Source: Pedobacter sp. PACM 27299
GTDB lineage: Bacteria; Bacteroidota; Bacteroidia; Sphingobacteriales; Sphingobacteriaceae
Assembly (NCBI RefSeq): GCF_001412655.1
Contig: NZ_CP012996.1
Coordinates: 3,720,001 to 3,784,000 of the forward strand
Direction: 5' to 3'
DNA: 64,000 nucleotides
Shown: positions 43,611-63,241 of the stretch, piece by piece
Layout: every line of letters starts with the position of its first letter
Position numbering within the stretch: position 1 is the stretch's first letter
Notes under the pieces: model-generated
Told to the model about the DNA's origin: nothing
The model's database searches: none
The model's input: only the letters and a program-made list of their open reading frames with translations
Made by a program: the position numbers and the translations under genes

Positions 43611-44402
43611 TTAATCAAATGAAGTGTCTTTATGCAATTTCCCAAATCGCTGTTCCTGCATTCGGTCATAGTCTTTCACATAATCCGGGTGTTCCGTTTT
43701 CATCCACCTGTCCCATACCCTTAAATACAATCCATAATTCCCTTTAAACTTCTGATGGTGCAGGTTATGAAAAGTAGAGGTATTTACGATTTCGAATAAG
43801 AACGTATTTCGGAAACCTTTGGGCATAATTTCATAGCCCAAATGTCCGTATACGTTGATGATAAAAGAGGATAAGGCGAACAGCGCCAAGGTGATTGGAT
43901 GCAAAGGCATGGCGAAAACCAATACAATCATCACTGCTCCTTCTGCTATGGCTTCCAAAAAATGAAAAGAATAAGACGTCCAAGGAGAAGGATTGGTAGA
44001 TTGATGGTGGACCAGATGTGTGGTCTTAAACAACCTTTTATGGTGTAAAATCCGGTGCATCCAGTAGAAATAAGTGTCATGAACCAATAAGGTCAGCAAC
44101 AGACTTACCGGAATCCACCATATCGGATATGCATGTAAATCGGTATAGATGAAGGTGTATCCACGAATTCCTTCGGAGAGCGCGATGATGGCCATGATGG
44201 CCAGCACGAGACTAGACACTGAAGAATGTAGAATTTCCCGCAGGAAATCGGCCTTACCCGCCAGCTTACCTTGGATCTTATTTCGCAGCAGGTTTTTGGG
44301 AAAAAGCAGGTAAAAAACTAAAAAAAAGATACCTGCGATGGTAAAATATCTACCTATAGTGAGGAGAAATGCCCAGCTAATATTTTCAAGCAATTGGTTC
44401 AT
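43611..44402 (-). CDS. Sterol desaturase/fatty acid hydroxylase family membrane protein
   Basis: A 263-residue inner-membrane protein with four or five hydrophobic segments. It carries the histidine clusters of diiron membrane hydroxylases: HDTYFYWMHRILHH, THLVHHQSTNPSPW, GHLGYE and FHNLHHQKF. Such enzymes hydroxylate or desaturate lipids, sterols, carotenoids or alkyl ethers using oxygen. It is the last gene of the long leftward operon and starts one base after the stop of the second permease/GldG gene. This tight link suggests that the operon's function includes modification of a lipid or a lipophilic ligand; the specific substrate is unknown. Confidence 0.85.
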   Translation of the reverse strand: MNQLLENISWAFLLTIGRYFTIAGIFFLVFYLLFPKNLLRNKIQGKLAGKADFLREILHSSVSSLVLAIMAIIALSEGIRGYTFIYTDLHAYPIWWIPVSLLLTLLVHDTYFYWMHRILHHKRLFKTTHLVHHQSTNPSPWTSYSFHFLEAIAEGAVMIVLVFAMPLHPITLALFALSSFIINVYGHLGYEIMPKGFRNTFLFEIVNTSTFHNLHHQKFKGNYGLYLRVWDRWMKTEHPDYVKDYDRMQEQRFGKLHKDTSFD

Positions 44403-44403
44403 A

Positions 44404-46692
44404 TTATTTACGTTTTCTGCGAATCAGGATTACCAGTCCGAGAAGGAAAAATACACCTGGGATTACGCCATAATAAATTATTTGTAAGATTTTTGTACTG
44501 ATCTTAGTCAGCGTTGTTACATTGTCTTTAGGATCGGGCCTGCTCGTATCTATCGGGAATTCTCCGTAGGCGAACCATTTGAAAATACCTAAAGCAAAAC
44601 CGCTGTTCATAGTCTGCATATTCATCCTTGAAAGTTCCGCATTGCTTAAAAAGTCGGCATCTCCGGAAACCATGATTCTTTGTTCTTTATGCTCGCGATT
44701 TCTGGTCAGCATCAAAGCAGTAGGAAAGCTTCCTTTCTGATCACCTGCCTTTGCATTAAATACTGCTGCTGCCGAATCCAATACCAGTTTTCCATTTTTC
44801 AGCCAGCTGCTTTCCGGGTTGGTCATCAACAAAGGATGAGCGGTAAAAGATCCTTCAGGATTATAGGCTAAAGCTGCTGCTCCTGGCATAGACACCACCC
44901 ATTTCCGTAGATAATAAGGCTGTAATTCCGGAGTCATCGCTGCTGCGGCAGCTGCTAAATTTGGCGTAACCAGATCATTTGAAAAATCTTTGCTCTCTTG
45001 AACCAAGGTTCCTTTCAGCATCTTCACACCCAGGGAATCCAGTAGGGGATTGATCACGCTTTGTTTACCAGCCTCTCCGGCAAGCATCAGGTTCCCACCC
45101 TGATCGATGTATTTCTGGATTTTAGTCATAGCCCGCGTACTAAAAGCCACTTTAGGATCTGCAATTACCAATGCCGCAATACCTGCAGGAATCTCTGCAT
45201 TTTCTAAAGACACACTGTCTACATCGAATCCCTGATTCACCATTGAGCCTCTGCTTAACTTTGTATTTGCCAAAGTTTTATAATCTCTGTCCCCTATTTT
45301 ATTCATGCTGCGCTGATAACCGTCCGTTGCAAAAACAATTTTCGGCGCATTTACAATCAGTCGTTTTAAGGCAGCACCAGTTTCTGCTTCTTTCGGCCAG
45401 AAATAGCTGTCAGGAGAAAAAGTACGCAAGAACGTAGTTTTACCCTTATACTTTAGCTGCATCACTACTCTTGCATTTTCACCTTCCAGGTTAATCTGCT
45501 CTTTAATTTCTGCAGGCGTCAAAAATTTGCGCAGGTCTAGTTTATTCAGGTTAGACATAAACATTACGTAATGACTAAAAGTAAAATTCTGCTGTTTCAA
45601 TTGTGCTGTGATCCCGGGGATACTATCGTAATAGTACACCCAATTTAACTTAATATTGGGTTTAAAACGTAGGTAAGGCTCCCATCTGGCAATATCTGCA
45701 ATCCGCTGATTCGGTTTCGCCTGGTTGTAAGAATCTTCCAGACCGTTGATGTATTCGGTCATTTCCACCGGCTCGTCACCCATTTTTTTAAGGATTTCCT
45801 GCGTGTTTTTACTGATGGTATTCTGTTTGGTGGCGGTGGCATCGTAATAACCAATCATCTGCTGACGGGAGCTGACATAAGTGATCGTTAAACCGACCAA
45901 TACAATCAAAGTATATCGCATCACTTGCTGCAACACGGTTTTCGATACCCGTTCCAATTCCAATTTAGTAATCGTTAAAGCAAGAAACATCCCGGAAATC
46001 ACCAGGTAATAAATGACATCCCGGCTATTCAGCAATCCAGACATCATTCTTGCCGTACGGTCCGGCATAGACAGACTATGGGTCAGGTCACGAATAAAAT
46101 CGATCCCCTGTCCTATTCTGCCAATGTAGTTCATAAAGGCCAGCACTACAAAAGTGCTGATCGCAGCTACCGCCTGATAGTTCGTTAAGCTGGATACAAA
46201 GATCCCTATGGCTGCAAAAGTGTTGAGCATTAAATAAATGGCCAGTAAAGCCACAAAAATATGTGGGTAGTCAAAATTCGGGATATAAATCGCACCGACC
46301 AATATAAACAGGCAAATCACGGCGATGATCATGAGGTTATACACCATCATGGCCAGAAATTTTCCATAGATCACCTGGCTTAGTTTCACTGGAGAAGAAT
46401 ACAGCAGTTTTATACTTCCACTACTGGTTTCCCTACTGATGATGCCCATGGTAATCAATGGAATATAGAGGTACAATTTATCCAGAATACCACTAAGCAC
46501 ACCGAAATATTCCGGATTGATAAATAGCTTATCTGTGAGCGCGCTGAGTCCTGCTCCGCGTGCTAAATCTGGTAATCTGGGGGTAAAACCCATACTCATC
46601 TGTACGAATAAGATGAGCAGCATGAGCCAGGCAATTGGTGAATAAAATAGCAGGCTAAGTTCCAGCCTGGCTATTTGTATAATTTTCTTCAT
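44404..46692 (-). CDS. ABC permease fused to GldG-like auxiliary domain (paralogue 2)
   Basis: A 762-residue protein. The N-terminal ~270 residues are an ABC-2-type permease with six membrane helices (IARLELSLLFYSPIAWL, then MGIISRETSSGSIKLLYSSP). After another helix, residues about 290-720 form an extracytoplasmic ABC_transp_aux/GldG-like domain (VFATDGYQRSMNKIGDRDYKT, split, and DQGGNLMLAGEAGKQ), and a final helix ends in RRKRK. In Flavobacteria GldF and GldG are separate; here they are one chain. It closely resembles the protein at 52163-54472, including nearly identical first and last residues, so one arose by duplication. It starts 10 bp after the M16 peptidase stop. Confidence 0.9.
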   Translation of the reverse strand: MKKIIQIARLELSLLFYSPIAWLMLLILFVQMSMGFTPRLPDLARGAGLSALTDKLFINPEYFGVLSGILDKLYLYIPLITMGIISRETSSGSIKLLYSSPVKLSQVIYGKFLAMMVYNLMIIAVICLFILVGAIYIPNFDYPHIFVALLAIYLMLNTFAAIGIFVSSLTNYQAVAAISTFVVLAFMNYIGRIGQGIDFIRDLTHSLSMPDRTARMMSGLLNSRDVIYYLVISGMFLALTITKLELERVSKTVLQQVMRYTLIVLVGLTITYVSSRQQMIGYYDATATKQNTISKNTQEILKKMGDEPVEMTEYINGLEDSYNQAKPNQRIADIARWEPYLRFKPNIKLNWVYYYDSIPGITAQLKQQNFTFSHYVMFMSNLNKLDLRKFLTPAEIKEQINLEGENARVVMQLKYKGKTTFLRTFSPDSYFWPKEAETGAALKRLIVNAPKIVFATDGYQRSMNKIGDRDYKTLANTKLSRGSMVNQGFDVDSVSLENAEIPAGIAALVIADPKVAFSTRAMTKIQKYIDQGGNLMLAGEAGKQSVINPLLDSLGVKMLKGTLVQESKDFSNDLVTPNLAAAAAAMTPELQPYYLRKWVVSMPGAAALAYNPEGSFTAHPLLMTNPESSWLKNGKLVLDSAAAVFNAKAGDQKGSFPTALMLTRNREHKEQRIMVSGDADFLSNAELSRMNMQTMNSGFALGIFKWFAYGEFPIDTSRPDPKDNVTTLTKISTKILQIIYYGVIPGVFFLLGLVILIRRKRK

Positions 46693-46702
46693 AGGGTTAT
46701 CA

Positions 46703-49486
46703 TCAAGGGTTAGTTTTTTCAGGCATTAAAACCAGTTTCACATAGTTTTTATCCTGAATGTATTTTGCAGCTGCTTCCTGAACAGATTTTGTACTGATGC
46801 CATTTAAAGCATTCCCATATTCAAAAAACTGGTTCAGGGATTCATTGTTCATCACTTGCGAAGCCAGGTAATCCATCCAGAATTCATTGTTCCTGGCCCC
46901 TGTTTCGAGTCCAACTTTACGTGCAGCTTTAAACTTCTGCAAGTTTTCTGCGGAAGGGCCTGATGTTCTCATTTTATTGAGTTCATCTTGTACTGATGCG
47001 TTCAGTTTCTCTACATTCTTTGGCGCACAATCGAAAGAGATGACCAATGCAAACCTGCTTTTCGGATATTTAGATAAACTAAGCTGCACATTTGGGGTAT
47101 AAGTTCCGCCCTCCTGATCACGAAGACGCTGCGTCAGACTAATAGTTAAAGCATCCGCTATTGCATTCATTTTAATTGTGTTCTCAAAATTGTAGTCGAA
47201 ATCACCTGAATACGCCAGAATTACACTTGACTTCTGTTCTGTGCCTTTATACACGGTTTTAGCAATCCTTCCGGCAGGAATGTTAATTCCAAGATCCTTT
47301 GCCTTTTCAACGACCCTTGTCGAAGGCAGGGAGCCCAGGTATTTTTCCAATAATGGTTTCAGTTTTTCGGCTGCTATATTTCCTACAAAAAGGAAGGTAA
47401 AAGCTGCTGCATTGCCAAAACGTGCTTTATAAATTTCAAAAGCACGGTCTAGCTGTATGGCTTCCAGGCGACTGATACTTTGTGGTTTTTTACGGCTGCT
47501 GTAATTTCCCAAAACCAGGTTCACAGTGTCCATAAACACTTGCGATCGGTTATCTTCTTTATTGATCAGCTGCTCTTTAGCTCTTCCGATGAGTGTCTGA
47601 AAAGACTCCTCATCCTTACGGGGTTCCATAAAATAAGCATGCAGCAACTCCAGCGCAGCTGGCAAATCTTCTGTAGTGGTACTGCCATTAAATCCCTGAT
47701 ACTGATCCAGGATAAAGGGGCTCAGCTGCACCTTTCTTCCGGTCATAATTTTCCCCAGCTGCAGGGCATCATAATTACCAGCTCCTGCAGCAGCTACGAT
47801 ATTCGCTGCATTCAGGGCACTTTCGTAATCTGCATCTCCAGATAAAGAAGTTCCGCCTGCAGCAAAGCCTTTGATCAGAATCTGATCATTTTGAAAGTCT
47901 GTTTTTTTCAACAATACCGTCATGCCATTGCTCAACTTGATCTTTTGAAGATCAGCTGGTTTAATTTCCTCTATAGCAGTAATCTTTCCTGGAACAGGTT
48001 CTTTTTTAAGCACTGGAAGGTCTAATTCCTCTTCTTCTACAGGAGGCAGATTTTGCGCATATACGCTTTCTATCCATTTCAGCAGGGTCGCTTCATCCGG
48101 AAGAAATGTTTTATTGTAAGCAGAAGATTTCACAATGATGTCCCGATCCTCAGCTTTCATATACGCCTTCATCAGGTTATTGATTTCATCTAATGAAACC
48201 TCAGGCAGTAATTCTTTCGTCAGTTCTGCCTCTTGAACGATCCCTGGAGCAGCATTACCTGTTAGAAAATGCTGGAGATAGGGTTTGATCAGTACTTCAG
48301 AACTGGTCTTATCTTTTTCTCTCAAAGCTTCATCCATTTGGAACTGGTAGGCTTTTTTCACCCTTCCCAATTCTGATTTTGTAAAACCTTGTTCTTCCAT
48401 CTGACGAAGTTCCAGCCATATACTTTTCAATGCCTGTTCGGTCTCTCCTGGCTTAGTGCTTAGGTTGACAGAGAAGGAAGTTATCCCCCCAGAAAGCGGC
48501 GTAAAACCGACAATCGGTAATCTTCTAAACCGAATACTCACCAGCTCTGCCAGCAATCTCTGTTTCAAATCTCCAAGGTAATCTGCCTTTGTCCTGATCG
48601 TATCCGCCAGCTGTTTCTTCATGATCTCTAGAGAGACTCCAGAAAATTCTGAGTCTATGAACTGCATATATTGGTTTTTACCCGTCAGGCTGACGCGATA
48701 GGCCGGACGTGCTGTTGCTTTTTCCGGGTTTTTCAAGTCTGAAAATTTGGCCTTGATGTCTTTCTCCATCTGGTCTACATCCACATCTCCGACTACCAAA
48801 ATAGCCTGAAGATCCGGACGATACCATTCCTTATAAAAACTGCGGATTTCTTCCGGTGTCACTTTTAAAAGTACTTCTTCAATTCCGATGGGTAAACGCG
48901 AACCATAACGGGAATTATTGGTATAAAAAGGCAGGCTTTTTTCCTGTAGACGTTGTGCAATCCCCTGACGGAAACGTTTTTCTTCCAGGATCACATGACG
49001 TTCACGCTCCACATCTTCCGCTTCCATATTGGCATCCTGCGCCCAATCGCGCATGATTTGCAGGCCATTGGCCAGTAATTCCGGATGGTCTGAAGGTAAT
49101 GGAAGCTGGTATACTGTTTCATCAAAACCAGTATTCGCATTGATGTCTGCTCCAAAACGTACCCCTGATTTTTCCAGGTAGTTGGAGAGTTCTTTTTTAG
49201 GAAAGTGTTTTGTTCCATTAAAGTTCATGTGTTCTACAAAATGGGCAATCCCTCTTTGCTGATCTGTTTCCAGAATAGAACCCACTTTATTAGCCAGGTA
49301 CATTGTGACCCGTTTCTCCGGTGTTTTATTTTTGCGGATGTAATAGGTAAAACCATTAGGCAGTTTACCCATTCTTAGTTCCGGGTCAAGCAGCAATGGC
49401 TGTCCATCCTGACTGGTTTTACAGGCAAAAGGAATACAAAGCGCCGCAAGAAATAAAAAGCTTAAATATTTATATTTGATGAACAT
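46703..49486 (-). CDS. M16-family zinc peptidase (insulinase/pitrilysin type), exported
   Basis: The longest frame starts at 49561, but the ATG at 49486 gives a signal peptide (YLSFLFLAALCIPFAC) and sits 7 bp after the MutS-like stop; 927 residues are preferred. The first M16 domain has the inverted zinc motif HFVEH (H82, E85, H86), followed by NTGFDETVYQLPLP and DVERERHVILEEKR, which supplies the third ligand. A second, inactive M16 domain forms the C-terminal half (MTVLLKKTDFQNDQILIKG). Such clamshell peptidases degrade peptides and unfolded polypeptides up to a few kDa. The cysteine at the end of the signal might be lipidated but the context is not canonical. In this operon it likely cleaves an imported or exported peptide. 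Confidence 0.92.
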   Translation of the reverse strand: MFIKYKYLSFLFLAALCIPFACKTSQDGQPLLLDPELRMGKLPNGFTYYIRKNKTPEKRVTMYLANKVGSILETDQQRGIAHFVEHMNFNGTKHFPKKELSNYLEKSGVRFGADINANTGFDETVYQLPLPSDHPELLANGLQIMRDWAQDANMEAEDVERERHVILEEKRFRQGIAQRLQEKSLPFYTNNSRYGSRLPIGIEEVLLKVTPEEIRSFYKEWYRPDLQAILVVGDVDVDQMEKDIKAKFSDLKNPEKATARPAYRVSLTGKNQYMQFIDSEFSGVSLEIMKKQLADTIRTKADYLGDLKQRLLAELVSIRFRRLPIVGFTPLSGGITSFSVNLSTKPGETEQALKSIWLELRQMEEQGFTKSELGRVKKAYQFQMDEALREKDKTSSEVLIKPYLQHFLTGNAAPGIVQEAELTKELLPEVSLDEINNLMKAYMKAEDRDIIVKSSAYNKTFLPDEATLLKWIESVYAQNLPPVEEEELDLPVLKKEPVPGKITAIEEIKPADLQKIKLSNGMTVLLKKTDFQNDQILIKGFAAGGTSLSGDADYESALNAANIVAAAGAGNYDALQLGKIMTGRKVQLSPFILDQYQGFNGSTTTEDLPAALELLHAYFMEPRKDEESFQTLIGRAKEQLINKEDNRSQVFMDTVNLVLGNYSSRKKPQSISRLEAIQLDRAFEIYKARFGNAAAFTFLFVGNIAAEKLKPLLEKYLGSLPSTRVVEKAKDLGINIPAGRIAKTVYKGTEQKSSVILAYSGDFDYNFENTIKMNAIADALTISLTQRLRDQEGGTYTPNVQLSLSKYPKSRFALVISFDCAPKNVEKLNASVQDELNKMRTSGPSAENLQKFKAARKVGLETGARNNEFWMDYLASQVMNNESLNQFFEYGNALNGISTKSVQEAAAKYIQDKNYVKLVLMPEKTNP

Positions 49487-49493
49487 GATGCGG

Positions 49494-52160
49494 TTATAAA
49501 GAAGATTTTTGAATGGCCTGATGCTTACCTTTAATGATGTCAACGATCTTTTCATTTTCAATGATGATCATACCTTGTCTGTCGGTGGTGATACCGGAAG
49601 CCAGTGTATACGGATAAGTAGGTACCCCATCTTTCATCACTGTAGGCAGGAAAGAGAATTGCAGGTTATCACATTGTTTCCCTAAAGCTTCCCCCACTTC
49701 AATAATGTGTGTAGAAACCACAAAGAAACTGTTCCTGTTTGCTGCAAAAGCTTTTGTTACGGCCAGTGTGGCATCATAAGCATCTTTTACGTTTGTTCCT
49801 TTAAACAATTCATCAAACAAAACGTACAGATCCAGGGATTCACTCACTGCTTTAGCCACAGTTTTGGTACGCAATACTTCCGCATAAAAATGGCTGTAGC
49901 CCATATCCAGGTTATCAGAAACATTGATCGAAGAGAACAAACCATCTTTCACTGAGAACTCCATAGTTTTTGCTGCGACGGGGAAGCCCATGTGGGCGAG
50001 GTAAACCCCAATTCCCATAGACTTCATGAAAGTAGATTTCCCTGCCATGTTAGCACCGGTTAAAAACAGGACGTTGCGGTCCTTCGTTAGATGCAGGTTA
50101 TTCGCAATTCCATTCCTCAATCCGGGATGGCGGAAAGCCTGCATGTTTAGCACCATTTGATCGGCAGGCAATGCTGTGGCATATACAAAATCATTTTCAG
50201 CGGCAACTGCGGCTACACCTGTAAATACATCCAACTCATAAATGAGTTTCAGCAACGTTTCCATCTGGTTCATCATCGCATGACGAATCACATGGTCGTT
50301 TTTAATCAGCTGCATTAAGGAAGGCTGCTCGGCTCCTTTCATAAGAATAGCTTGTAACCTGCTATCCTGAAGAATATTTATGGCAGTGTCGAGATATTGC
50401 TGATAGACGCCAACACCGGCTTTTCCTTTCAGCTCCGTGAAGAACTCCTGAAAGGCTTGTAAAACTTCAATCGTCACCGATTGTCCGGCTTGTAACTGCA
50501 ATAATTCTGCACTATGAAAAAGCGTTTGCTGGAACTTCTTGGTAAAGATGCCCCAGGCTACACTTGGCAATGCCGCACCTGCTCCACCAGCCAGATAATC
50601 TTCCATCGACTCCACCTGTGAGCGGATCACTGGAAAAATCACGCGGTGCTGCTGGAAAAATGCAAATAAAGCACTGCGTTTATTGATCAGTTCAGGCTGG
50701 TTCAAAGGCTGGGCAAACATACCTTCCAGCACTTTCTCTCCACCCCTGGTTTGCAGGCGATTGAAAAAACTGTAAATTGATTGCTGTTTAAATTTTCCCT
50801 GCAAATTCAGATCTTCAATAGTTTGTTGATCTGCCGTAAGATTTTGCGGTGTCTTTTTCGCTTCTTTTTGATCACTGATCAGCTCTAGGACACCTTCATT
50901 ATTGATGATGATCATCCCATGTCTGTCATCGGTAATTCCTGCTGTTAGCGTATAGGTATAAACTGGTTTGCCATTTTCCATTCGGGTAGGCAAATAGCGA
51001 AAAATCATGTTGCTGCATTTCTGCTGTAATACATCACCCGCTTCCATAATGTGTGTAGAAATCACAAATAGGGAATGTGGTTTACTGGCAAATGCTTCCA
51101 TGATGGCAATTGTACCTTCATAAGCATCCTTCACATTGGTTCCACGAAACAGCTCATCGAACACGACAAACAGGTTCTTTTCGGCACCAAGTTCAACCGC
51201 TACTTTTTTCACCCTCAGCACTTCTGCATAGAAATGACTGGCGCCCATGGCCAGGTTATCCGGCAGGTTAATGGTGGTGTACATGCCATCACATACGGAA
51301 AACTCCATTTGCTTTGCCGCAATTGGAAAACCAAGGTGTGCCAGGTACATCGCAATGCTGAGTGATTTCATAAAGGTAGACTTGCCCGCCATATTAGCTC
51401 CGGTTAGGAATACAATATTGCTGTCGGGGGTCATCTCCAAAGCATTGGTCACTGGCTTATTCAGTAAAGGATGACCTAGACCTTCCAGTTTTAAACGGTT
51501 GGCATCACGCTTTAATGCAGTAGCAAAGCTGTAACCTCGTTCCTCAGCTACCCTGGCGATAGAAATATATACATCCAGGTGGTAAATGTGCTGCAGGATT
51601 TTCTCCATTAGCGGACGCTGCTGAAAGCGTAAAATATTGTCGTATTCTACAATTTTACCGGAGGAGATTTTTCCTTTTCCATGGTCTGCAAAGATAATTT
51701 CCAATGCCCTGGAATTGACAAGTTCCAGGATTTTCTCCACTTCTTTACCGTAAGGATTATCGGAAACTTTTGGCTGAATGTCCAGCATAAAGCTTCTCAA
51801 TCCCTGTAAGATTTCCGTTAATGCGGTCACACTTTCTCCGGCCGCTTTAAAATCTGCCATGCTGAAACCCTGATTAGAAAGGCGACTGCGGGGATCGGTA
51901 TTGGCCAGGTATCTTTCTGCTTCTTCAAAACGGTTTCCCTGTAAAGGAAAAACAGCTTTATCGCCCTGAAAGTACCGCAGAGTGGCTACCCTTTCATTGA
52001 TCAGTTTCTCATCCGAAAGCGGATTCCGAAACAAATCTTCCAGTAATGCAGCTCCACCTTGAGTATAGGTTTTATTAAAAATATGGTAGATCGAATCGCT
52101 TCCCGACTTGGAGAAGATATTCAGATCATCGATCGTTTGTTTATCAGTTATAAAGCTCAT
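49494..52160 (-). CDS. Tandem double MutS-like ATPase (two MutS core+ATPase units in one chain)
   Basis: An 888-residue protein consisting of two repeats of about 444 residues. Each begins with a QTIxDLN segment, has a MutS-III-like helical core (GGAALLEDLFRNPLSDEKL; GGEKVLEGMFAQPLNQPEL) and an ABC-type MutS ATPase domain. Walker A is GANMAGKST in both (from G254 and G702), Walker B is VVFDELFRGTN and VLFDELFKGTN, and the signature region is DNLAMGASHFYAEV and DNLDMGYSHFYAEV. The mismatch-recognition and connector domains are absent, so it should not act in mismatch repair. Both sites look intact, so the chain may form an intramolecular counterpart of a MutS dimer. It is cytoplasmic and lies 2 bp after a permease/GldG gene and 7 bp before the M16 peptidase. 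The function is unknown. Confidence 0.9.
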   Translation of the reverse strand: MSFITDKQTIDDLNIFSKSGSDSIYHIFNKTYTQGGAALLEDLFRNPLSDEKLINERVATLRYFQGDKAVFPLQGNRFEEAERYLANTDPRSRLSNQGFSMADFKAAGESVTALTEILQGLRSFMLDIQPKVSDNPYGKEVEKILELVNSRALEIIFADHGKGKISSGKIVEYDNILRFQQRPLMEKILQHIYHLDVYISIARVAEERGYSFATALKRDANRLKLEGLGHPLLNKPVTNALEMTPDSNIVFLTGANMAGKSTFMKSLSIAMYLAHLGFPIAAKQMEFSVCDGMYTTINLPDNLAMGASHFYAEVLRVKKVAVELGAEKNLFVVFDELFRGTNVKDAYEGTIAIMEAFASKPHSLFVISTHIMEAGDVLQQKCSNMIFRYLPTRMENGKPVYTYTLTAGITDDRHGMIIINNEGVLELISDQKEAKKTPQNLTADQQTIEDLNLQGKFKQQSIYSFFNRLQTRGGEKVLEGMFAQPLNQPELINKRSALFAFFQQHRVIFPVIRSQVESMEDYLAGGAGAALPSVAWGIFTKKFQQTLFHSAELLQLQAGQSVTIEVLQAFQEFFTELKGKAGVGVYQQYLDTAINILQDSRLQAILMKGAEQPSLMQLIKNDHVIRHAMMNQMETLLKLIYELDVFTGVAAVAAENDFVYATALPADQMVLNMQAFRHPGLRNGIANNLHLTKDRNVLFLTGANMAGKSTFMKSMGIGVYLAHMGFPVAAKTMEFSVKDGLFSSINVSDNLDMGYSHFYAEVLRTKTVAKAVSESLDLYVLFDELFKGTNVKDAYDATLAVTKAFAANRNSFFVVSTHIIEVGEALGKQCDNLQFSFLPTVMKDGVPTYPYTLASGITTDRQGMIIIENEKIVDIIKGKHQAIQKSSL

Positions 52161-52162
52161 AA

Positions 52163-54472: not shown

Positions 54473-54486
54473 TTGTGTGGTCGTAC

Positions 54487-55410
54487 TTAATTAGAGAATC
54501 TGGACAATTGGGCAAAGGTTTCATCTAATGAACTCTTCTCCATATTCAGTTCACGCAATCGCCATCCTTGCTTTGCACTTTCCAGTACCAGCGTTTCAGA
54601 GATGCTGCGATCGCCATTAAAGTAGAGTCTGAGCTGTTTTTCCGTCAGGTATTCTACTCTGGTGATGCCTTCAATGGCCAGCAACGCATCTGCCGGAGGC
54701 GCATTTTCCATTAAGGCGATCATGCTGTGCGGCGCTACATAGTTGTCGAAAGCTTCCATGGTATCTGAAAATACAATCCTTCCGCTTTCGATCATGACGA
54801 TCTGCTTGCACAGGTACTGCACTTCAGTCAGCACATGGGTAGAAAGAATGACTGCACGTTCTGTGGCAATGTCTTTGATCAGTCCGCGGACTTCAATGAT
54901 CTGATTGGGATCCAATCCATTAGTAGGCTCATCAAATACTACTAATTTTGGATGGTGAATAATCGCCTGAGCAATCCCTACCCTTTGCTTAAAACCGCCG
55001 GATAAATTCTTGATCAATCGTTTGCTGATCTGTGTTAATCCGCAGCGTTCTTTCACTTCATCCATGGCAGATTTCAGTTGTTTACTGTCTATCGAACGCA
55101 GAATGCCACAATGTCTGAGGTATTCATCAACTGTTAAATCCATATATAAGGGGGGAGTCTGCGGTAAAAATCCGATCTCCTGTTTCGCCCGTTCCGGCTC
55201 TCTACTCAGGTCGATCCCATTGATGATCACTTCTCCTGCGGTTTGTGACAGCACGCCGCAAAGGATGTTCATGGTCGTAGATTTACCTGCTCCATTGGAG
55301 CCTAACAAGCCTACAATCCCACTCCTTGGGATCTCTATATTGATGTCACGTATAGCCCAGCTGGTACTATAACGATGCGACAAACCGCTAATACGAACGA
55401 TTGGTTCCAT
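54487..55410 (-). CDS. ABC transporter ATP-binding protein (GldA/ABC-2 type)
   Basis: A 307-residue ATPase with Walker A LLGSNGAGKSTTMNIL, Q-loop FLPQTPPLYMDLTV, signature LSGGFKQRVGIAQ, Walker B LVVFDEPTNGLDP and the switch His in ILSTHVL. The C-terminal ~80 residues are the regulatory tail usual in GldA and other ABC-2 exporters. It is the only ATPase gene for the two permease/GldG genes downstream. It starts 63 bp after the DUF4397-like lipoprotein gene, the widest gap of the long operon, and that gap contains a hairpin. Confidence 0.93.
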   Translation of the reverse strand: MEPIVRISGLSHRYSTSWAIRDINIEIPRSGIVGLLGSNGAGKSTTMNILCGVLSQTAGEVIINGIDLSREPERAKQEIGFLPQTPPLYMDLTVDEYLRHCGILRSIDSKQLKSAMDEVKERCGLTQISKRLIKNLSGGFKQRVGIAQAIIHHPKLVVFDEPTNGLDPNQIIEVRGLIKDIATERAVILSTHVLTEVQYLCKQIVMIESGRIVFSDTMEAFDNYVAPHSMIALMENAPPADALLAIEGITRVEYLTEKQLRLYFNGDRSISETLVLESAKQGWRLRELNMEKSSLDETFAQLSRFSN

Positions 55411-55443
55411 AGTTAAATATTGGATTAAGAAAATGTATTGGAG

Positions 55444-55465
55444 AGCAGGCTTAAAAAAGCCTGCT
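55444..55465. other. Intercistronic hairpin between the lipoprotein and ABC ATPase genes
   Basis: AGCAGGCTT (55444-55452) and AAGCCTGCT (55457-55465) form a perfect stem with a four-base loop. On the transcribed minus strand no T-run follows, so it is more likely an RNA-processing or stability element, or a weak attenuator, than a full terminator. Confidence 0.5.
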
Positions 55466-55473
55466 TTTGTGTG

Positions 55474-56232
55474 TTAATAGTTGTCGAACAAAAAGGTTTT
55501 TTGTTTCAATAGCTCGGAACTTTCCCCAGGTAAGCCAATCAGGGCAATGGTAAAATTCCTGAATCGCCATTTATTCTCAGAGGGCTTTTCCAGTTCTGTC
55601 GTTGTATAGCTGGCAAGAAGCTCCTGTGTGGCCTGGTCCCGGAATTCAAAAGTGTAGTTGCCGGTTTTTAAAGTTGCAGTATAGCTTTTAAAGTTAGTAA
55701 TTCCTTTGTAAGCCAATCCTTCTACTTCTTTACGTTCCCCATCTTTAATCAGGTATACATTTATGGGTTTACTTCCATAAGAGAGGTTGATAAACCGAAT
55801 GCCAAATGTGCTGTCGGCTGCTTGATGAACGGGTGGAAGATAGGTGTCCAGCAAATAATCAGGATTTTCCTTTTTGCCTAAAAAATATAGCGTATTGATA
55901 CTGCCTTTTTTTAATTTAAGCTGGAGGTCAAATAGCGGTTTATCAGGCGACAGGGTATCCGGGTAGCTGTAAATCGCCAGAGGCTGATCTTCTTTGGTAA
56001 TGGCATATTTACCACCTACATTAAAGACCCCATAATCAAACAGTATAGCGAGGTAATAACGATTTAAAGGTTCAGTTCCTCTAAAGCTAGGCAGCAGCCT
56101 TAACTGCCCGGGCATCGCATTAAATAGTGTAAGATGCGTAAGCACAGGAGTTTGTTCTGTTTTTTTACAGGAAACAAATGCAAAGCATAGCAGACTAATA
56201 AATAAGATATATTGAAATTTATAAATTTTCAT
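55474..56232 (-). CDS. DUF4397-like outer-membrane lipoprotein
   Basis: A 252-residue lipoprotein from the ATG at 56232 (a TTG at 56241 would add three residues). The signal is YILFISLLCFAFVSCKK, with Cys as acylation site. The rest is beta-rich, with two probable immunoglobulin-like halves; FGIRFINLSYGSKPINVYL and TGNYTFEFRDQATQELL resemble DUF4397 domains (TLFNAMP...; RFINLS...). Genes of this kind commonly follow SusD as the third component of SusC/SusD operons and may be surface ligand-binding accessories. It lies 18 bp after the SusD stop. Confidence 0.8.
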   Translation of the reverse strand: MKIYKFQYILFISLLCFAFVSCKKTEQTPVLTHLTLFNAMPGQLRLLPSFRGTEPLNRYYLAILFDYGVFNVGGKYAITKEDQPLAIYSYPDTLSPDKPLFDLQLKLKKGSINTLYFLGKKENPDYLLDTYLPPVHQAADSTFGIRFINLSYGSKPINVYLIKDGERKEVEGLAYKGITNFKSYTATLKTGNYTFEFRDQATQELLASYTTTELEKPSENKWRFRNFTIALIGLPGESSELLKQKTFLFDNY

Positions 56233-56250
56233 GTGGTTCAATTTAGGTGA

Positions 56251-57696
56251 TTAGTAACCAGGATTTTGAGTCAGGTTATTATTTGACTGGATCTCAGAAA
56301 CAGGAATCGGATACAGCAGCTGGTAATCTCCTGCCCAGGGTTGTTTAACCGAAATAACAGAGAGCTCATCGTGTGCTTTTCCTGTTCTTTTCAGGTCTAA
56401 CCAGCGGTGTCCCCATTCTAAGAAAAACTCTGTTCTTCTTTCTTTCTCAATAGCGAGTACTACTGCTGCTTTGGAAAGCCCCATAGGAAGTTCAGTGACA
56501 CCCGCACGGGCACGAATGACATTTAGATCTTTAATTGCAGGATCCAGCTGTTGGTTTCCAAGGGTGATGGCCTCCGCTCTGATTAAGTATTGTTCGGCCA
56601 ATCTGAGCATGGTGTAATACTCTGTTATTGGCGCATTCACAGCAGAATTCCCTAATCCTATTTTGTATTTATTCACATAATAAGTGGTAGTACCTGCGAT
56701 AGCAACCGGCATCAGCCAGGAAGACTTTCTCTGGTCCTGATTTTCGAATACCTGTACCAGCTCATTCGCAACACGGTAGCCGTAATATTGACCAGGTATG
56801 ACTGCAGGAAAGGCTCTGAAAGCATACCCTTCAGGGGTCGCATTTCCACGAGGACTGATTAAATTACTCTGCTGTAATTGCCAGATGGCTTCCTTATTAT
56901 TCTTTAAAAAGACCTCATTTAAATCCGGCCTCAATTCGAATAATGCAGATTGATCAATCACTTCTGTTGCTGCTGCAGCTGCATTGGCATAATCTCCTGT
57001 ATACAGGTAAACCCTGGCCAGCATTGCTGTTGCAGCCCATTTATTGGCACGAATGCGTTCTCCCAGCTGCGATCCTGAAAAATCAGCAGAGAGGTTTGCT
57101 TTGGCATCCTGCAAATCTTTAATCACCTGTGCATACACTTCAGCTTTAGGTGTACGGGTCATCTTGGCCGTCTTGTTAAAATCCGCGGAGAGTGCCAATG
57201 GTACATCTCCAAAAAGATTCACCAGATAGAAATAGCTGTAGGCTCTTAAGAACTTAGCTTCAGCAGTCAGCTTGATTCTTACCTCCGTGTGTAATTTTGC
57301 AGAAGTGGAGGCACTGATCCCTTCAATAATGGCATTAGCATTATAAACATTACTATAAGCACCGACCCATAGTGCACGGGTGGTATAGTCTTCTGTTGGT
57401 ATTTTATTGCTGTAATATGGATTGGGACTACTGCTGGATAGGCTGAGTTCATCAGCACCCATGCTGCCCAAAGAAGTGGTTAAACCATTTCCAAAATTAA
57501 GTGCGCCTTCTTCATTAATCAATTGTGAATAGGCACCAGTCATTGCAGAATTGGCCTGACTGTCATTTTCAAAAACCTTATCTGTGGTAATGGTATTAAT
57601 GGGATCAGGAATCGCGATCATGTCCTTACAGGAAGCACACAACAGAATGACTGCAGTGAATAAAATATAGCGGTTTAAATTTCTCTTAATTGTCAT
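56251..57696 (-). CDS. RagB/SusD-family outer-membrane lipoprotein
   Basis: The ATG at 57696 (11 bp after SusC) is preferred over the longer frame from 57732, because it places the lipoprotein signal ILFTAVILLCASCKD correctly; 481 residues. Diagnostic SusD stretches are AEAKFLRAYSYFYLVNLFGDVPL, split after SYFY, AATAMLARVYLYTGDYANA, and RRTEFFLEWGHRWLDLKRTG near the C-terminus, ending NLTQNPGY. It binds the ligand together with the STN-SusC. No glycosidase is in this operon, which makes a peptide or other non-glycan ligand more likely. Confidence 0.94.
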   Translation of the reverse strand: MTIKRNLNRYILFTAVILLCASCKDMIAIPDPINTITTDKVFENDSQANSAMTGAYSQLINEEGALNFGNGLTTSLGSMGADELSLSSSSPNPYYSNKIPTEDYTTRALWVGAYSNVYNANAIIEGISASTSAKLHTEVRIKLTAEAKFLRAYSYFYLVNLFGDVPLALSADFNKTAKMTRTPKAEVYAQVIKDLQDAKANLSADFSGSQLGERIRANKWAATAMLARVYLYTGDYANAAAAATEVIDQSALFELRPDLNEVFLKNNKEAIWQLQQSNLISPRGNATPEGYAFRAFPAVIPGQYYGYRVANELVQVFENQDQRKSSWLMPVAIAGTTTYYVNKYKIGLGNSAVNAPITEYYTMLRLAEQYLIRAEAITLGNQQLDPAIKDLNVIRARAGVTELPMGLSKAAVVLAIEKERRTEFFLEWGHRWLDLKRTGKAHDELSVISVKQPWAGDYQLLYPIPVSEIQSNNNLTQNPGY

Positions 57697-57707
57697 CTCG
57701 ATAGGAA

Positions 57708-60700
57708 TTAAAAAGTTACGGAAAGGCCACATAAATAGATTTTGGCTGGTGGAAGCGCTCCAAAAGTCTGTACATCAGGATCAAAACCGGTCACATTGCT
57801 GATCACAAATACATTTTGAGCATTCATATAAATCCTCAGCGATTCTGCGCCTAATTTTTTCGCCCAATTTTGATTCAGCGTATAAGAAAGAGCCAGATTA
57901 GACAGGCGCACATAAGAAACATTTCTATACCTGCCATCAGAATTCGCAAACTGATTTGTTCCCTCATTAAACATCGTAGTTGCTTTTGGGTACAAGGCAT
58001 GGTCACCTGGGCCTTTCCAATAATTCCCCATGATCTGTCTGGGTAGATTGCCTAAGTTTCCAGCATATACGTCAGAGTTATAGTTGGGATCAGATCCTAT
58101 AAAATTATTATAATTGAAGGTGGTACTCAGGCTAAGGTTCTTATAACTAAAATTGCTGGTCAGTCCGCCGGTAAGTTTTGGCGAAAGGTCTAAAGACACG
58201 TATTGGTCGCCTTCACCAGCTAAACCATTGGTATTCTGCTCGATATTACCATTCTGATTGTAATCTTCCATCTTGTAAACACCAGTCAGGGGATCTACAC
58301 CTAAATAGTGGAAAAGATATTTGGTATTGATAGATTTACCTACTTTCAATGTATTTGCAAAAGGGGAATGCGCGATATCCGGATAAGAAACCAGTAGATT
58401 CTTGTTTCTGGAAGCAAACAGTGCCACCGACCAGTTAAACTTTTCATTTTTAACCAGATCTGCATTTACTGTTAAATCCCAGCCCCTGTTGTCTACTACT
58501 GCTGGCCAGTTGGATACTACACTTGGGAAACCGGTATAAAGCGGCGTAGGGAATTGGGTCAGCTGGTTGTCGCAGCGTTCGCGGTACAGATCAAACTGCA
58601 CATTAATCCGGTTTTCTAAGAAACCAATTTGCAGCGCCCCTTCCATCTTTTTATTCACCTGCCATTGGTAATTTGGATTTAAAGCCAAAATACTAACGAG
58701 AGAACTGGAACCATCATAATCAGGTAAAGCGGTACCATATTGTTTATTTTTAGCCCATTGTGCCAGGTATTTATAATCGCCAATCGCATCACTACCCGTT
58801 AAAGCATAACTTCCCCTCAGCTTCAGGAAACTGATAAATTCAGGAAGCGCTTTTCTAATGCCCTTTTCTTCTGTTAAAATCCATGCTGCGCCAATAGAAC
58901 CGAAATTACCGAACTGGTTGCCTGGACCAAATCTGGAGGATCCATCTCTGCGGAAGTTTAGGTTAAGAATATATTTCTCTTCCCATTTATAATTGATCCT
59001 GCCAAATACTGCCGCATATTTATAATAACCAACATCTCCGGTAGGGTTAAAAGTAGCAGGTGCCAGAAAAATTGACTCTATGAAATCATCGCTGTCATAA
59101 CCAATGCCTGTGATAGAATTGGCTCTTGTTATATTTTTTTGCAAAGATCCCCCTAACAGTAAGGAAAGCTGTCCATTGCTTATTTTCGTCTTGTAATCCA
59201 GCTGTGGTTCAACCAGCACATTCATATTGGTATTGCTGCCAAAAAATGACGATCCTGTTGGGTTGGTGATCGGATCCTGTGCCCGAATATAACTCAGGTA
59301 TTTATTGGTATTGTTGCTGTAATTGTACCCAAAATTGGTGGAAAAATTCAAGTTGTCCAGGATCTCATAACTCAATCGCAGGTTGCTGGTGATCATGTGT
59401 GTATCAGAAAAATAGGGATTATCCAATACGCCAAAAGGAAAAGTCACTTTTGAATCTGGAGCGGCTCTCCATGGACCAAAATTAAACAGGCCATCAGGTC
59501 CATAAATATCAGGAGCATTGGGAGGCAAAGTCACCATGCTTGGAATACCAGTAGTATTAACAGTCGTATAGGTATACATCCCTCCCAAATCTACTTTAAA
59601 CTTTCTATCTGCAGTTTTATGTCCTAGGTTAAAGGCTAATCCAGCCCTTTGATTACTGCCTGTGCTGGTCAGGATTTCGGTTTGTTTTCCATAATTAGCC
59701 CCAAGGCGAAATTGGGTTTGTACATCTCCACCGGTTAAACTCATGTTCACATTAGACTGTTTCCCAATATTTCCCCAAAGTAATTTTTGCCAGTCGGTCT
59801 GTTTATTCTGGTCCCAAAGCACTAGATCAGGTGCATTGCTGATATCAGGAATAATATTGTCATTTTTAAACGCCTCTCTTCTGATTTGCAGGTATTCCGG
59901 TGTACTGAGTACATCCCAGTGTTTTGTTACTTCAGAAAAAGCCTGTTCTACGCCTATTGAAAACTTAGTTGCTCCAGGTCTGCCTTTTTTAGTCGTGATC
60001 AGGATGACCCCATTCGCTGCCCTTGAACCATAAATCGCGGTCGCATCACCATCTTTCAAGACTTCAATACTTTCAATGTCTTTACTATTGATGTTAAACA
60101 TCGGACTCTGACCTCCTGTAGGGGAATGAATATTCTGGGTAATTCCAGTAGATCCTGTCTCGTAACTGGACATCCCACCTACTTCCAGGTTATTTTGAGG
60201 TACCCCATCAATCACGTACAAAGGATCAGAAACAAAATTAGGGTTAATGGATTTCCTGCCTCTGATTTCTACTTTCACCGGACTGCTTGCATAACCATTT
60301 GTAGGCGTTACAATAACGCCGGGAATCCTGCCTTGTAAGGCCAGTAAAGGATTCATCACCGGCTGCTGTTCTAATTCTTTAGAAGTGATTTTTGAGATGT
60401 TACCTGTGCTTAAACGGCGGTCTGTGGTACCATAAGCCTGCACCATCACTTCATCCAAAAAGGATACTGATGGCTCCAGCATGATGGTCAGATAAAAGCC
60501 TGCAGCTGTTTTCACCACGCTCACATCCTTAGAGAATGAACTCGTATTTGGAGCCATTTTTTCAAATTCTCCCAACCTTACCTGTACGGAATCAAATCCT
60601 ACAGAACTAAAGGTGATGACGCTATTTTCTTCTAGCTTCGGCAAAAAAAATTCTCCCTTAGCATTAGAACCGACGTTTATTTTTCTATTCTTTACTTTAA

Positions 60701-61160
60701 GTGTGACGCCGCTTAAAGGTTCATTCGTCTTTTTATTGACGATATTTCCGCGTACTTCTATATCACCTGCAAAAATTGCCGCGACACGATCCAGGATAGT
60801 CGGCACTTTTGCCTTCAGTAAAACGGTTTTATTTTCAATTTTATAAGTGATCGGCTGGTCGGTAAAACACTTTTCCAGCACCTCTTCTATCGATGCGTTT
60901 CTCACAGAGATAGAGATGGGTTTACTCGACTTGATGAGTGCTTCACTAAAAAGGAAGTCGTAACCACTTTGCGACCGAATGTCCTTTAACACCTTCTCCA
61001 ACTGGGTATTTTTCGTATTCAGGGTAATGCGCTGAGCGAAACTGCTTGCACTTACCTGCATCATTGTAGCTATTAAAATAACGGTGGTGAATCGTATCAT
61101 TAATAAAATCTTATTCGCATACTTTTTCAGTACGGATTTGTTCGTATAGGTTTTATACAT
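57708..61160 (-). CDS. SusC/RagA-family TonB-linked receptor with N-terminal STN signalling domain
   Basis: The ATG at 61160 gives 1150 residues; the frame extends to 61208 but without better features. After the signal peptide (ending ASSFAQ) comes an STN domain (residues about 46-118; TQLEKVLKDIRSQSGYDFLF and ASIEEVLEKCF), then a carboxypeptidase-regulatory-like domain (VRGNIVNKKTNEPLSGVTLK), plug (VMVQAYGTTDRRLSTGNISK, YVIDGVPQNN, GDATAIYGSRAANGVILITT) and barrel. STN domains contact FecR-type anti-sigma factors, here encoded immediately upstream with an ECF sigma factor. Ligand binding should therefore induce this operon. Confidence 0.96.
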   Translation of the reverse strand: MYKTYTNKSVLKKYANKILLMIRFTTVILIATMMQVSASSFAQRITLNTKNTQLEKVLKDIRSQSGYDFLFSEALIKSSKPISISVRNASIEEVLEKCFTDQPITYKIENKTVLLKAKVPTILDRVAAIFAGDIEVRGNIVNKKTNEPLSGVTLKVKNRKINVGSNAKGEFFLPKLEENSVITFSSVGFDSVQVRLGEFEKMAPNTSSFSKDVSVVKTAAGFYLTIMLEPSVSFLDEVMVQAYGTTDRRLSTGNISKITSKELEQQPVMNPLLALQGRIPGVIVTPTNGYASSPVKVEIRGRKSINPNFVSDPLYVIDGVPQNNLEVGGMSSYETGSTGITQNIHSPTGGQSPMFNINSKDIESIEVLKDGDATAIYGSRAANGVILITTKKGRPGATKFSIGVEQAFSEVTKHWDVLSTPEYLQIRREAFKNDNIIPDISNAPDLVLWDQNKQTDWQKLLWGNIGKQSNVNMSLTGGDVQTQFRLGANYGKQTEILTSTGSNQRAGLAFNLGHKTADRKFKVDLGGMYTYTTVNTTGIPSMVTLPPNAPDIYGPDGLFNFGPWRAAPDSKVTFPFGVLDNPYFSDTHMITSNLRLSYEILDNLNFSTNFGYNYSNNTNKYLSYIRAQDPITNPTGSSFFGSNTNMNVLVEPQLDYKTKISNGQLSLLLGGSLQKNITRANSITGIGYDSDDFIESIFLAPATFNPTGDVGYYKYAAVFGRINYKWEEKYILNLNFRRDGSSRFGPGNQFGNFGSIGAAWILTEEKGIRKALPEFISFLKLRGSYALTGSDAIGDYKYLAQWAKNKQYGTALPDYDGSSSLVSILALNPNYQWQVNKKMEGALQIGFLENRINVQFDLYRERCDNQLTQFPTPLYTGFPSVVSNWPAVVDNRGWDLTVNADLVKNEKFNWSVALFASRNKNLLVSYPDIAHSPFANTLKVGKSINTKYLFHYLGVDPLTGVYKMEDYNQNGNIEQNTNGLAGEGDQYVSLDLSPKLTGGLTSNFSYKNLSLSTTFNYNNFIGSDPNYNSDVYAGNLGNLPRQIMGNYWKGPGDHALYPKATTMFNEGTNQFANSDGRYRNVSYVRLSNLALSYTLNQNWAKKLGAESLRIYMNAQNVFVISNVTGFDPDVQTFGALPPAKIYLCGLSVTF

Positions 61161-61207
61161 TTCATCTGGTTTAGGACAAATTCTTAGCGGCCGATGAAAC
61201 CGTAACA

Positions 61208-61238
61208 TTGTATTAACTCACAATATTTGCTAAGTTTG
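61208..61238 (+). promoter_or_regulatory. Plus-strand promoter between FecR and SusC
   Basis: TTG at 61208-61210, a 20-bp spacer, and TAAGTTTG at 61231-61238 match the Bacteroidota consensus with correct spacing. It points away from SusC, although no plus-strand protein gene follows. Confidence 0.55.
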
Positions 61239-61244
61239 TTTGTC

Positions 61245-61328
61245 TGGTTTAGGTTGATAGGATCTCAAATTTTTATGAACGTATCCAGCATCGGTCAGGA
61301 GTGTTTCCAGCACTTCTGACCTCTTTTT
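61245..61328 (+). ncRNA. Candidate cis-antisense small RNA upstream of SusC
   Basis: A consensus promoter (61208-61238) and a terminator (61293-61328), both on the plus strand, bracket about 85 nt with no reading frame of note. The RNA would be antisense to the mRNA leader between FecR and SusC. In Bacteroides, cis-encoded antisense RNAs at exactly this place, between anti-sigma and susC genes, repress several utilisation loci (DonS type). The assignment is by position and signals only. Confidence 0.45.
61293..61328 (+). terminator. Plus-strand Rho-independent terminator
   Basis: GGTCAGGAGTG (61293-61303) pairs with CACTTCTGACC (61311-61321), with one G-U pair, and TCTTTTTT follows on the plus strand only. 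On the minus strand the same stem lies 30 bp beyond the FecR stop but lacks a T-run. Confidence 0.65.
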
Positions 61329-61350
61329 TGGATTACGTTTGGAATAGTAT

Positions 61351-62647: not shown

Positions 62648-63241
62648 TCAGTTTCTTTTGGAAAGTTCAATAATAATTAGTCCGACTGGGGCATAAACGG
62701 CTAGTTTTGAACGAAGGATTTTCAAGGCATTGTTCACTTGCTTTTTTACAGTTTGATCAGAAAGACCTAGTTTATCGGCAATTTCTGCATGGGAAAGGTT
62801 GTCCTTACGGCTCATTTCAAAGATGATCCTCATTTTAGGAGGTAAATTGTCAATCTCGCGCTGTACAATGATTTTCAGTTCACGCTCATCAATGTCCTGG
62901 ATTGTTTCCATGCTCACTTCTGAAGCATATTTAGCCAAAGAAGCAATGTGATCGTTTTTAAGCTTGTTGCGCTTTATGAATTTTAAGACGCGGTTTCTGG
63001 CACCGATGTAAAGGTATCCGGCAATGTTATTGTCTTCCTGAACAAGTTCCGGTTTATCCCATAGGCCCACGAATAAATCCTGTACCAGGTCTTTGGATGG
63101 CTCCTCGTCCCTTAACATCTGATTTACCTTGTAAAACATCAGCACTGCATATCTATTGTAGATTTCTGCAAAGGCCTCATGGTTCCTGTCTTTTAAAAGA
63201 CGGACCAATTCAGAATCCGTAAATTCAGAATACATTTTCAT
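62648..63241 (-). CDS. ECF-type RNA polymerase sigma factor
   Basis: A 197-residue sigma-70 family protein. Region 2 shows HEAFAEIYNRYAVLMFYKVNQM and EEPSKDLVQDLFVGLWDKP, and region 4 shows LPPKMRIIFEMSRKDNLSHAEIADKLGLSDQTVKKQVNNAL, split at the helix-turn-helix. This is the usual partner of a FecR anti-sigma in Bacteroidota and should direct transcription of the SusC operon downstream. A second ATG two codons inside (63235) is possible. A housekeeping-type promoter precedes it, so it is probably made constitutively at low level. Confidence 0.95.
   Translation of the reverse strand: MKMYSEFTDSELVRLLKDRNHEAFAEIYNRYAVLMFYKVNQMLRDEEPSKDLVQDLFVGLWDKPELVQEDNNIAGYLYIGARNRVLKFIKRNKLKNDHIASLAKYASEVSMETIQDIDERELKIIVQREIDNLPPKMRIIFEMSRKDNLSHAEIADKLGLSDQTVKKQVNNALKILRSKLAVYAPVGLIIIELSKRN

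Follow-up and report, generated by a model that had tools for sequence, protein, structure and literature searches.

The window analyzed here, a stretch of 64,000 nucleotides covering positions 3,720,001 to 3,784,000 of contig NZ_CP012996.1 of Pedobacter sp. PACM 27299 (a genome of 6.15 Mb in a single contig), contains a cluster of nine envelope-related genes that lie behind genes for an extracytoplasmic function (ECF) sigma factor and a FecR anti-sigma factor, all on the minus strand (Table 1). Profile scans bear out the initial annotation of this DNA, made from the letters alone, with respect to the presence, common direction and guessed families of these genes, and the tight spacing that it pointed out between the gene for the ATP-binding cassette (ABC) ATPase and that for the hydroxylase is real, with successive gaps of 14, 2, approximately 7, 10 and 1 bp; the gap between the lipoprotein and ATPase genes is 63 bp.

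Table 1. Genes and features of the cluster, in positions of the window
Feature	Position	Strand	Basis
ECF-type sigma factor	62648..63241	-	Sigma70_r2 and Sigma70_r4_2 above cut-off
FecR anti-sigma factor	61351..62526	-	Pfam FecR and FecR_C above cut-off
FecR-SusC intergenic leader, 142 bp	61209..61350	-	holds inverted repeat at 61293-61321
SusC/RagA TonB-dependent transporter with STN signaling domain	57708..61208	-	TIGR04056 611.9 bits (cut-off 368.25); STN 42.5 bits
SusD lid lipoprotein	56251..57732	-	SusD-like_3 above cut-off; SusD_RagB 95.2 bits (cut-off 23.1)
Lipoprotein, weakly DUF4397-like	55474..56241	-	DUF4397 27.6 bits (cut-off 30.6)
ABC ATPase, GldA-like	54487..55410	-	262.7 bits, under GldA cut-off of 402.6
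Fused permease 1: predicted NosY-fold membrane domain, further domain, IFT52/OST48-type (GIFT) domain, C-terminal helix	52163..54472	-	
Fused pair of MutS-core ATPases (domains III and V twice)	49494..52160	-	MutS_III and MutS_V, two stretches each; AlphaFold 2 (AF2) model, fold match
M16 metallopeptidase, signal-like start, PqqL/FusC-like	46703..49561	-	probable start near 49486
Fused permease 2 (61% identity to its paralogue, permease 1)	44404..46692	-	
Membrane fatty-acid hydroxylase/sterol-desaturase family enzyme	43611..44402	-	PF04116 96.3 bits; motifs HRILHH, HLVHH, HNLHH

As called, the M16 open reading frame (ORF) shares 68 bp with the MutS gene; its signal-like sequence begins at Met26, which would leave the 7 bp given above for this junction. 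The inverted repeat between the FecR and SusC genes comprises 13 pairs, G-T pairs included, and is terminator-like on the plus strand only, so that for the minus-strand operon it would be a leader hairpin; sigma-70-like promoters show no excess (40 found versus 44.2 expected). The SusC and SusD proteins qualify by their profile scores as a transporter of the RagAB type, and the solved relatives of the SusC protein are SusC homologues and RagA. The gene that follows had been described as encoding a DUF4397-like lipoprotein; the lipoprotein is there, and the domain match remains below its cut-off.

The arrangement of the cluster is more than chance, as its gene order is found again at a second site in this genome and in other Bacteroidota. 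The second locus (L009 in our numbering of loci), near 2.30-2.32 Mb, encodes SusC, SusD, ATPase, permease, double MutS protein, M16 peptidase, a further permease and hydroxylase in this order, without the lipoprotein gene, and every gene mapped in it is a homologue of a gene of the window cluster. Identity between the two copies is 51% for SusC, 55% for SusD, 63 and 69% for the permeases, 68% for M16, 83% for the hydroxylase, 84% for the MutS protein and 86% for the ATPase; the inner machine is thus conserved between the copies and the surface receptor divergent. An order unique to the strain, which the initial annotation had named beforehand as evidence against its proposal of a conserved, ECF/FecR-linked envelope system, is ruled out by this copy and by the loci of relatives.

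Those loci came from two sources: 151 genomes of the family, searched with the MutS protein as query, and named genome contigs, in a scan of which at least 579 relatives were confirmed and the best 80, representing 79 distinct loci, were kept; gene maps were made with home-made hidden Markov models. Since the loci were picked by similarity to the window MutS protein, the counts describe this MutS subfamily, and they are slightly inflated by near-copies (identity is 99% between the MutN proteins of L140 and L148, and in a few further pairs of loci one gene is more than 97% identical). The loci come from Pedobacter, Mucilaginibacter, Sphingobacterium, Chitinophaga, Niastella, Pseudoflavitalea, Odoribacteraceae, Butyricimonas, Rikenellaceae, Prevotella, Aestuariibaculum and Robertkochia, among others. 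Upstream sequence of 4.5 kb or more is available for 83 loci (71 from named contigs and 12 others, including this genome), and in 76 of them the ATPase and permease genes lie directly upstream of the MutS pair. Among the seven exceptions (L042, L094, L116, L121, L129, L138 and L145), the last four are permuted, such that the MutS pair is followed by ECF-FecR-SusC-SusD, two lipoprotein genes and the ATPase; the same permuted order is found in L157, for which little upstream sequence is available. Where 8.5 kb or more of upstream sequence is available (79 MutS-pair loci), SusC and SusD scored above the thresholds in 70 and FecR in 57; in the SusC alignment, 64 of 70 rows cover the STN region. 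An M16 gene is present in 30 of the 77 loci that reach 3.5 kb or more downstream, and the hydroxylase gene in 10 of the 72 that reach 7 kb or more, all ten in Pedobacter. A second permease gene is seen in a minority of loci, most relatives having one, and the MutS pair, fused in the window, is encoded by two adjacent genes in most relatives.

The ABC genes can be followed beyond the MutS pair. Permease genes adjoin 100 of the 104 ATPase genes of the annotated loci that have at least 3.5 kb of upstream sequence, and SusC and SusD are encoded near 95 of them; among the remaining nine, L158, L161 and L168 have SusCD further downstream. With thresholds of E ≤1e-90 for the ATPase and E ≤1e-40 for the permease, the two proteins were found in exactly the same 23 of the 151 genomes, of which 10 also encode a cassette-type MutS (a pair in nine, a single gene in G029), whereas it is lacking in 13. 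In the ABC loci of these 13 genomes, SusCD is found in 11 (not in L164 and L171) and M16 in seven, the M16 of two of these (L161 and L168) being cut off where the sequence ends; in the latter two, the ABC genes sit between the ECF and FecR genes. Across 395 genomes of the phylum, the ATPase was matched in 12 and the permease in 11, all within these 12; the twelfth, G331, has a weak ATPase match and no permease match. In one genus of another family, the order ECF-FecR-SusC-SusD-ATPase-permease-M16 holds in all six loci of five genomes, and the gene maps of these six contain no MutS.

Thus, the core of the system is SusC-SusD with the GldA-like ATPase and the fused permease, usually accompanied by ECF/FecR, and the M16 peptidase, the MutS pair, TlpA-like thioredoxins (found in several loci) and lipoproteins come as modules that can be exchanged. 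By parsimony on a quickly built tree of 108 ATPases, MutS requires 9 changes, M16 13 and DUF4843 6, and MutS and M16 are not associated with each other (M16 in 29 of 68 MutS loci versus 11 of 25 others). Over 60 loci, the pairwise distances form three tight blocks, MutN-MutC (r 0.94), ATPase-permease (0.92) and SusC-SusD (0.90), with MutS and ABC proteins correlated at 0.75-0.79 and either of them with SusCD at 0.54-0.59, although these figures ignore the relatedness of the species, which counts against leaning on them; mean distance is 0.72 for SusC versus 0.37 for the ATPase. That a conserved SusCD-ABC gene system exists which is not peculiar to this strain is well supported. The initial annotation had treated the whole gene set as one system: conservation agrees with this, and the view has to be narrowed with respect to the hydroxylase, the second permease, and the facultative M16 and MutS genes. 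As that annotation had claimed, no description of this gene set was found, in our case in the open-licence literature searched.

In the MutS-like protein, the Pfam scan detected, of the MutS domains, III and V only and no match to domains I, II or IV; the AF2 model (predicted template modeling score 0.78) matches the fold of Escherichia coli MutS from residue 265 on and has no strands between residues 13 and 213, where the clamp would lie. The protein is therefore predicted to be a pair of MutS superfamily core ATPases devoid of the mismatch-reading and clamp domains. The ATPase motifs are kept: Walker A is present in 87 of 87 N partners and 87 of 87 C partners, and Walker B reads DE.FRGTN in all 87 of the former and DELF[KR]GTN in all 87 of the latter. 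With MutS/MSH heterodimers, MutS2 and KamC the pair shares the III-V core, two different subunits and intact ATPase motifs; unlike these proteins, it has no detectable mismatch-recognition, connector or clamp domain, and an assignment as a KamC-type reactivase was rejected (NF052383, 196.1 bits versus a cut-off of 300). Among the best 80 of the at least 579 relatives, the closest to the window protein is that of Pedobacter sp. N36a (96-97%). The fusion of the two partners appears to have occurred nine times by parsimony, of which only two events are forced by well-supported branches; fusions of MutS with the ATPase or permease, which would have pointed directly to contact, were not found among the ORFs of the annotated loci.

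Identity as a DNA repair protein was rejected because the domains needed for repair were not found, and the cassette MutS proteins probably have nothing to do with this process. That the pair is a DNA repair or DNA uptake factor sharing the operon by chance, as its ancestry and the frequent label "mismatch repair protein" in public records would have it, is very improbable given the domain composition and the association with the ABC genes. In the 151 genomes, cassette MutS occurs in 10, all of them among the 23 with the ABC transporter, which is present in 13 of the 141 genomes that have no cassette MutS (Fisher p 9e-10); genomes with only a single MutS homologue of 440 aa were not counted as having cassette MutS, whereas G029 was. 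When G050 and G091, which carry MutS fragments and no ABC match and were left out at first, are added as a check, the transporter is present in 10 of 12 MutS genomes versus 13 of 139 (p 5e-8). The dependence is one-way: genomes with cassette MutS nearly always hold the ABC transporter, and not the reverse. Of eight genomes picked for a MutS locus that lacks ABC genes directly upstream (on contigs shorter than 7.5 kb in three cases), seven encode the ATPase, although for L121, L129 and L138 this may be the gene at the opposite end of the locus itself; the eighth, a Prevotella metagenome-assembled genome, has a MutS that is more distant. In genome G019, SusCD is in view beside five of the six ATPase genes (L174-L178), and the remaining one is on a contig of 3.6 kb; none has MutS beside it, and a single MutS-MutS-M16 cluster lies on another contig, an arrangement that suggests action of MutS in trans.

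Several further observations concern the MutS proteins. The cassette-like fragments of G091 (L063) and G050 (L070) look like decaying remnants. A separate single-gene MutS-core homologue of approximately 440 aa, about 29-41% identical, is encoded at 4672242-4673543 of G000 and in most of L051-L080; many genomes of the family have it, in varied gene neighborhoods. Among 8,000 candidates scored there were 5,479 matches at E ≤1e-10, not all of this MutS subfamily, and many of the named proteins among the 120 matches listed are called "DNA mismatch repair protein MutS". One relative of the N partner, P0028 of Mucilaginibacter sp. L196, is publicly labeled adenylyl-sulfate kinase, and other records have DNA mismatch repair protein MutS.

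The two permeases had been taken for permease-GldG fusions. Their membership in the GldG family fails at the curated cut-off, and they are better described as proteins with a predicted NosY-fold membrane domain and a GIFT domain. The ATPase and permease are distant homologues of the components of GldAFG, including a GldG-type domain; unlike in GldAFG, the GldF- and GldG-like parts are fused, and the best scores are below the cut-offs for GldA (262.7 of 402.6 bits), GldF (73.8 of 288.5) and GldG (22.7 of 389.85). A closer GldA match, also under the cut-off, is encoded elsewhere in the genome (375.8 bits, 1205435-1206184), and a plain GldAFG system was rejected on both counts. Divergence of the permease domains was likewise discarded as a sign of substrate contact: mean identity is 42% on the periplasmic side versus 50% in the membrane, and both parts track the ATPase more than SusCD. 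NosDFY, which shares the fold of the membrane domain and lacks the fusion to a GIFT domain, is an ABC transporter with a mechanical role. By analogy, the ABC machine could work mechanically on an envelope protein, for instance in the release or unfolding of cargo or in the maturation of a periplasmic enzyme, with nothing crossing the inner membrane, a possibility which is compatible with peptide acquisition and to which we give some, though less than even, weight; against it, no NosD domain was found among the cluster proteins scanned with Pfam, and the same membrane fold is found in the true transporters PmtCD, ABCG and ABCA.

The window M16 protein is matched over nearly its full length by the M16 structure 9ldy (474.7 bits), PqqL (214.8) and FusC (147-150). 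In all 35 M16 proteins examined (those of loci L009-L180 that score above 800 bits and are longer than 700 aa, with the six of the other-family genus excluded), the first 300 residues contain a single HxxEH motif, and the starts of these proteins look, by eye, signal-like, in Pedobacter lipoprotein-like. The protein is accordingly predicted to be an exported peptidase of the FusC/PqqL type with an active-site motif. In the relevant passages of PMC6793856, FusA/FusC-type clusters are presented as systems by which Proteobacteria import proteins, FusD being the hypothesized inner-membrane transporter, and Fus of Pectobacterium and Ydd/PqqL of E. coli combine, like the cluster described here, a TonB-dependent receptor, a periplasmic M16 peptidase and a proposed inner-membrane transporter; both were described there in Proteobacteria, whereas the present cluster is found in Bacteroidota. 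The receptor here is SusC-SusD rather than a member of the FusA/YddB group (a figure legend in the same article gives SusC as highly divergent from the main receptor group and FusA as similarly distant), and the NosY/GIFT-type ABC part, the MutS pair and ECF/FecR with STN have no counterpart in those systems. RagAB and BT2261-64 are also SusCD transporters, with bound oligopeptides, and the passages on them in PMC7782687 show no ABC machine or MutS partner.

Peptidases of other families lie beside the ABC copies of two further genomes, S9 in G531 (L187 and L188) and M14 in G087 (L171). In L188 (4210-12426), two tandem S9-type peptidases (914 and 917 aa) and an outer-membrane β-barrel protein are encoded near the ATPase-permease pair and an ECF gene, possibly a variant of the same system without SusCD; in L171 (11417-17050), two tandem M14 carboxypeptidase-like proteins adjoin a permease-ATPase-permease triple. 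Of the ligands considered originally, namely a peptide, a lipopeptide or a lipophilic compound, the peptide side gains support because of the kinship of M16 with PqqL and FusC and these S9 and M14 peptidases. The absence of glycosidases noted at the outset is confirmed by the Pfam scan, which detected no carbohydrate-active enzyme among the ten window proteins scanned, so that the cluster lacks the makeup of a polysaccharide utilization locus. Such a locus, for a polysaccharide or glycoconjugate and with the ABC transporter present by happenstance, could be suspected from SusCD with ECF/FecR, the usual front end of glycan loci, from the resemblance of the GIFT domain to OST48 and IFT52, and from a glycoside hydrolase of family 2 (GH2) encoded beside L048; we consider it improbable, in view of the lack of these enzymes in the window, of L009, where the mapped genes are all homologues of those of the window, and of the recurrence of proteases in relatives.

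We propose that the cluster serves to acquire and process peptides or small proteins that are sensed at the cell surface, with a logic similar to that of Fus and with Bacteroidota parts, and that a MutS-core heterodimer assists its ABC machine; our confidence in this is about even. Judging by family, SusC-SusD would bind and import the substrate, and STN would signal through FecR to the ECF factor and switch the cluster on. The periplasmic M16 peptidase, in some copies perhaps together with a TlpA-like thioredoxin, would cut or unfold the cargo. The ATPase dimer with two permease chains of modeled NosY/GIFT fold (permeases 1 and 2 in the window, products of one gene in most relatives) may use ATP hydrolysis to drive transport or movement on the periplasmic side, and the cytosolic MutS-core heterodimer, fused in the window, may act as an ATP-dependent clamp or regulator of this machine. 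Specificity would be set by SusCD and the lipoproteins, the inner machine being generic. We put forward the last two steps with more reserve than those read from family membership: the ABC machine may move the product across the inner membrane or work mechanically on its periplasmic side, and the MutS pair may be its cytosolic ATP-dependent partner.

A number of observations weigh against peptide acquisition. FecR was not detected in 22 of the 79 loci, no M16 gene lies nearby in 47 of the 77, and SusCD was not seen in six ATPase loci (L096, L100, L164, L171, L188 and L189), which include the S9 locus L188 and the M14 locus L171; the S9 gene of L187 sits behind a neighboring SusCD pair. The structures in the PDB that match SusC and SusD do not single out peptides, and the sequence of the window SusC is no closer to RagAB and BT2261-64 than to other SusC proteins. 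Besides the GH2 enzyme beside L048, a further protein is shared by L140, L142 and L148, the L140 copy being weakly esterase-like, and the hydroxylase has no place in the scheme. Finally, ABC-2 permeases are often exporters, so that efflux or immunity is possible.

In the latter case, the cluster would defend the cell from antimicrobial peptides or lipopeptides that the receptor senses, M16 destroys and the ABC-2 transporter expels, with the hydroxylase altering membrane lipids. Weak similarity of permease 2 to lantibiotic-immunity permeases (21.8 versus 145.2 bits), of the ATPase to lantibiotic-protection ATPases (183.1 versus a cut-off of 309.75) and of the hydroxylase to OlsE (25.2 versus 475), the presence of PmtCD among the fold matches, and ECF/FecR control would all fit. 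Nevertheless, we regard immunity as unlikely: SusCD, the near-constant partner, is an importer that would bring the agent in, the variation lies in SusCD and not in the ABC part, the hydroxylase is restricted to the ten loci mentioned above, and PADLOC, run on seven proteins (SusC, SusD, FecR and the ECF factor being left out), gave only partial ATPase-type matches, for the MutS protein and the ATPase, and none for the other five. As these seven proteins yielded nothing beyond such partial matches, the reading as an anti-phage defense system was set aside.

Tentatively, we suggest further that a MutS-family ATPase pair was recruited to membrane transport: driven by ATP, it would clamp, from the cytosol, a NosY/GIFT ABC machine whose work is coupled to import by SusCD and to proteolysis in the periplasm, with one pair in some genomes serving several receptor-ABC cassettes in trans. 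If true, this would be a new kind of whole-envelope active uptake system and a non-DNA role for MutS, and the cluster exposes a large group of proteins that often go under the name of mismatch repair MutS. Bacteroidota take up nutrients mainly through SusCD systems, and how the non-sugar cargo of these passes the periplasm is poorly known. With SusCD tied in one conserved cluster to an inner-membrane machine driven by ATP and to a protease of Fus type, this passage becomes testable in easily grown soil bacteria.

The place of the lipoprotein between SusD and the ATPase is taken in relatives by proteins with DUF4843 and PKD_2, by other lipoproteins, or is empty. Assignment of a 307-aa lipoprotein to LP_HExxH was dropped (15.4 versus 75 bits, in one of two scanned), as was the idea that the DUF4843/PKD_2 lipoproteins are the BT2261/BT2262 proteins, for which solved structures gave no match. 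A related lipoprotein-like protein of approximately 306-348 aa, which in the sole copy scanned, that of L117, had no Pfam match, is encoded between SusD and the ATPase in L113, L115, L117, L134, L139, L146, L147 and L150.

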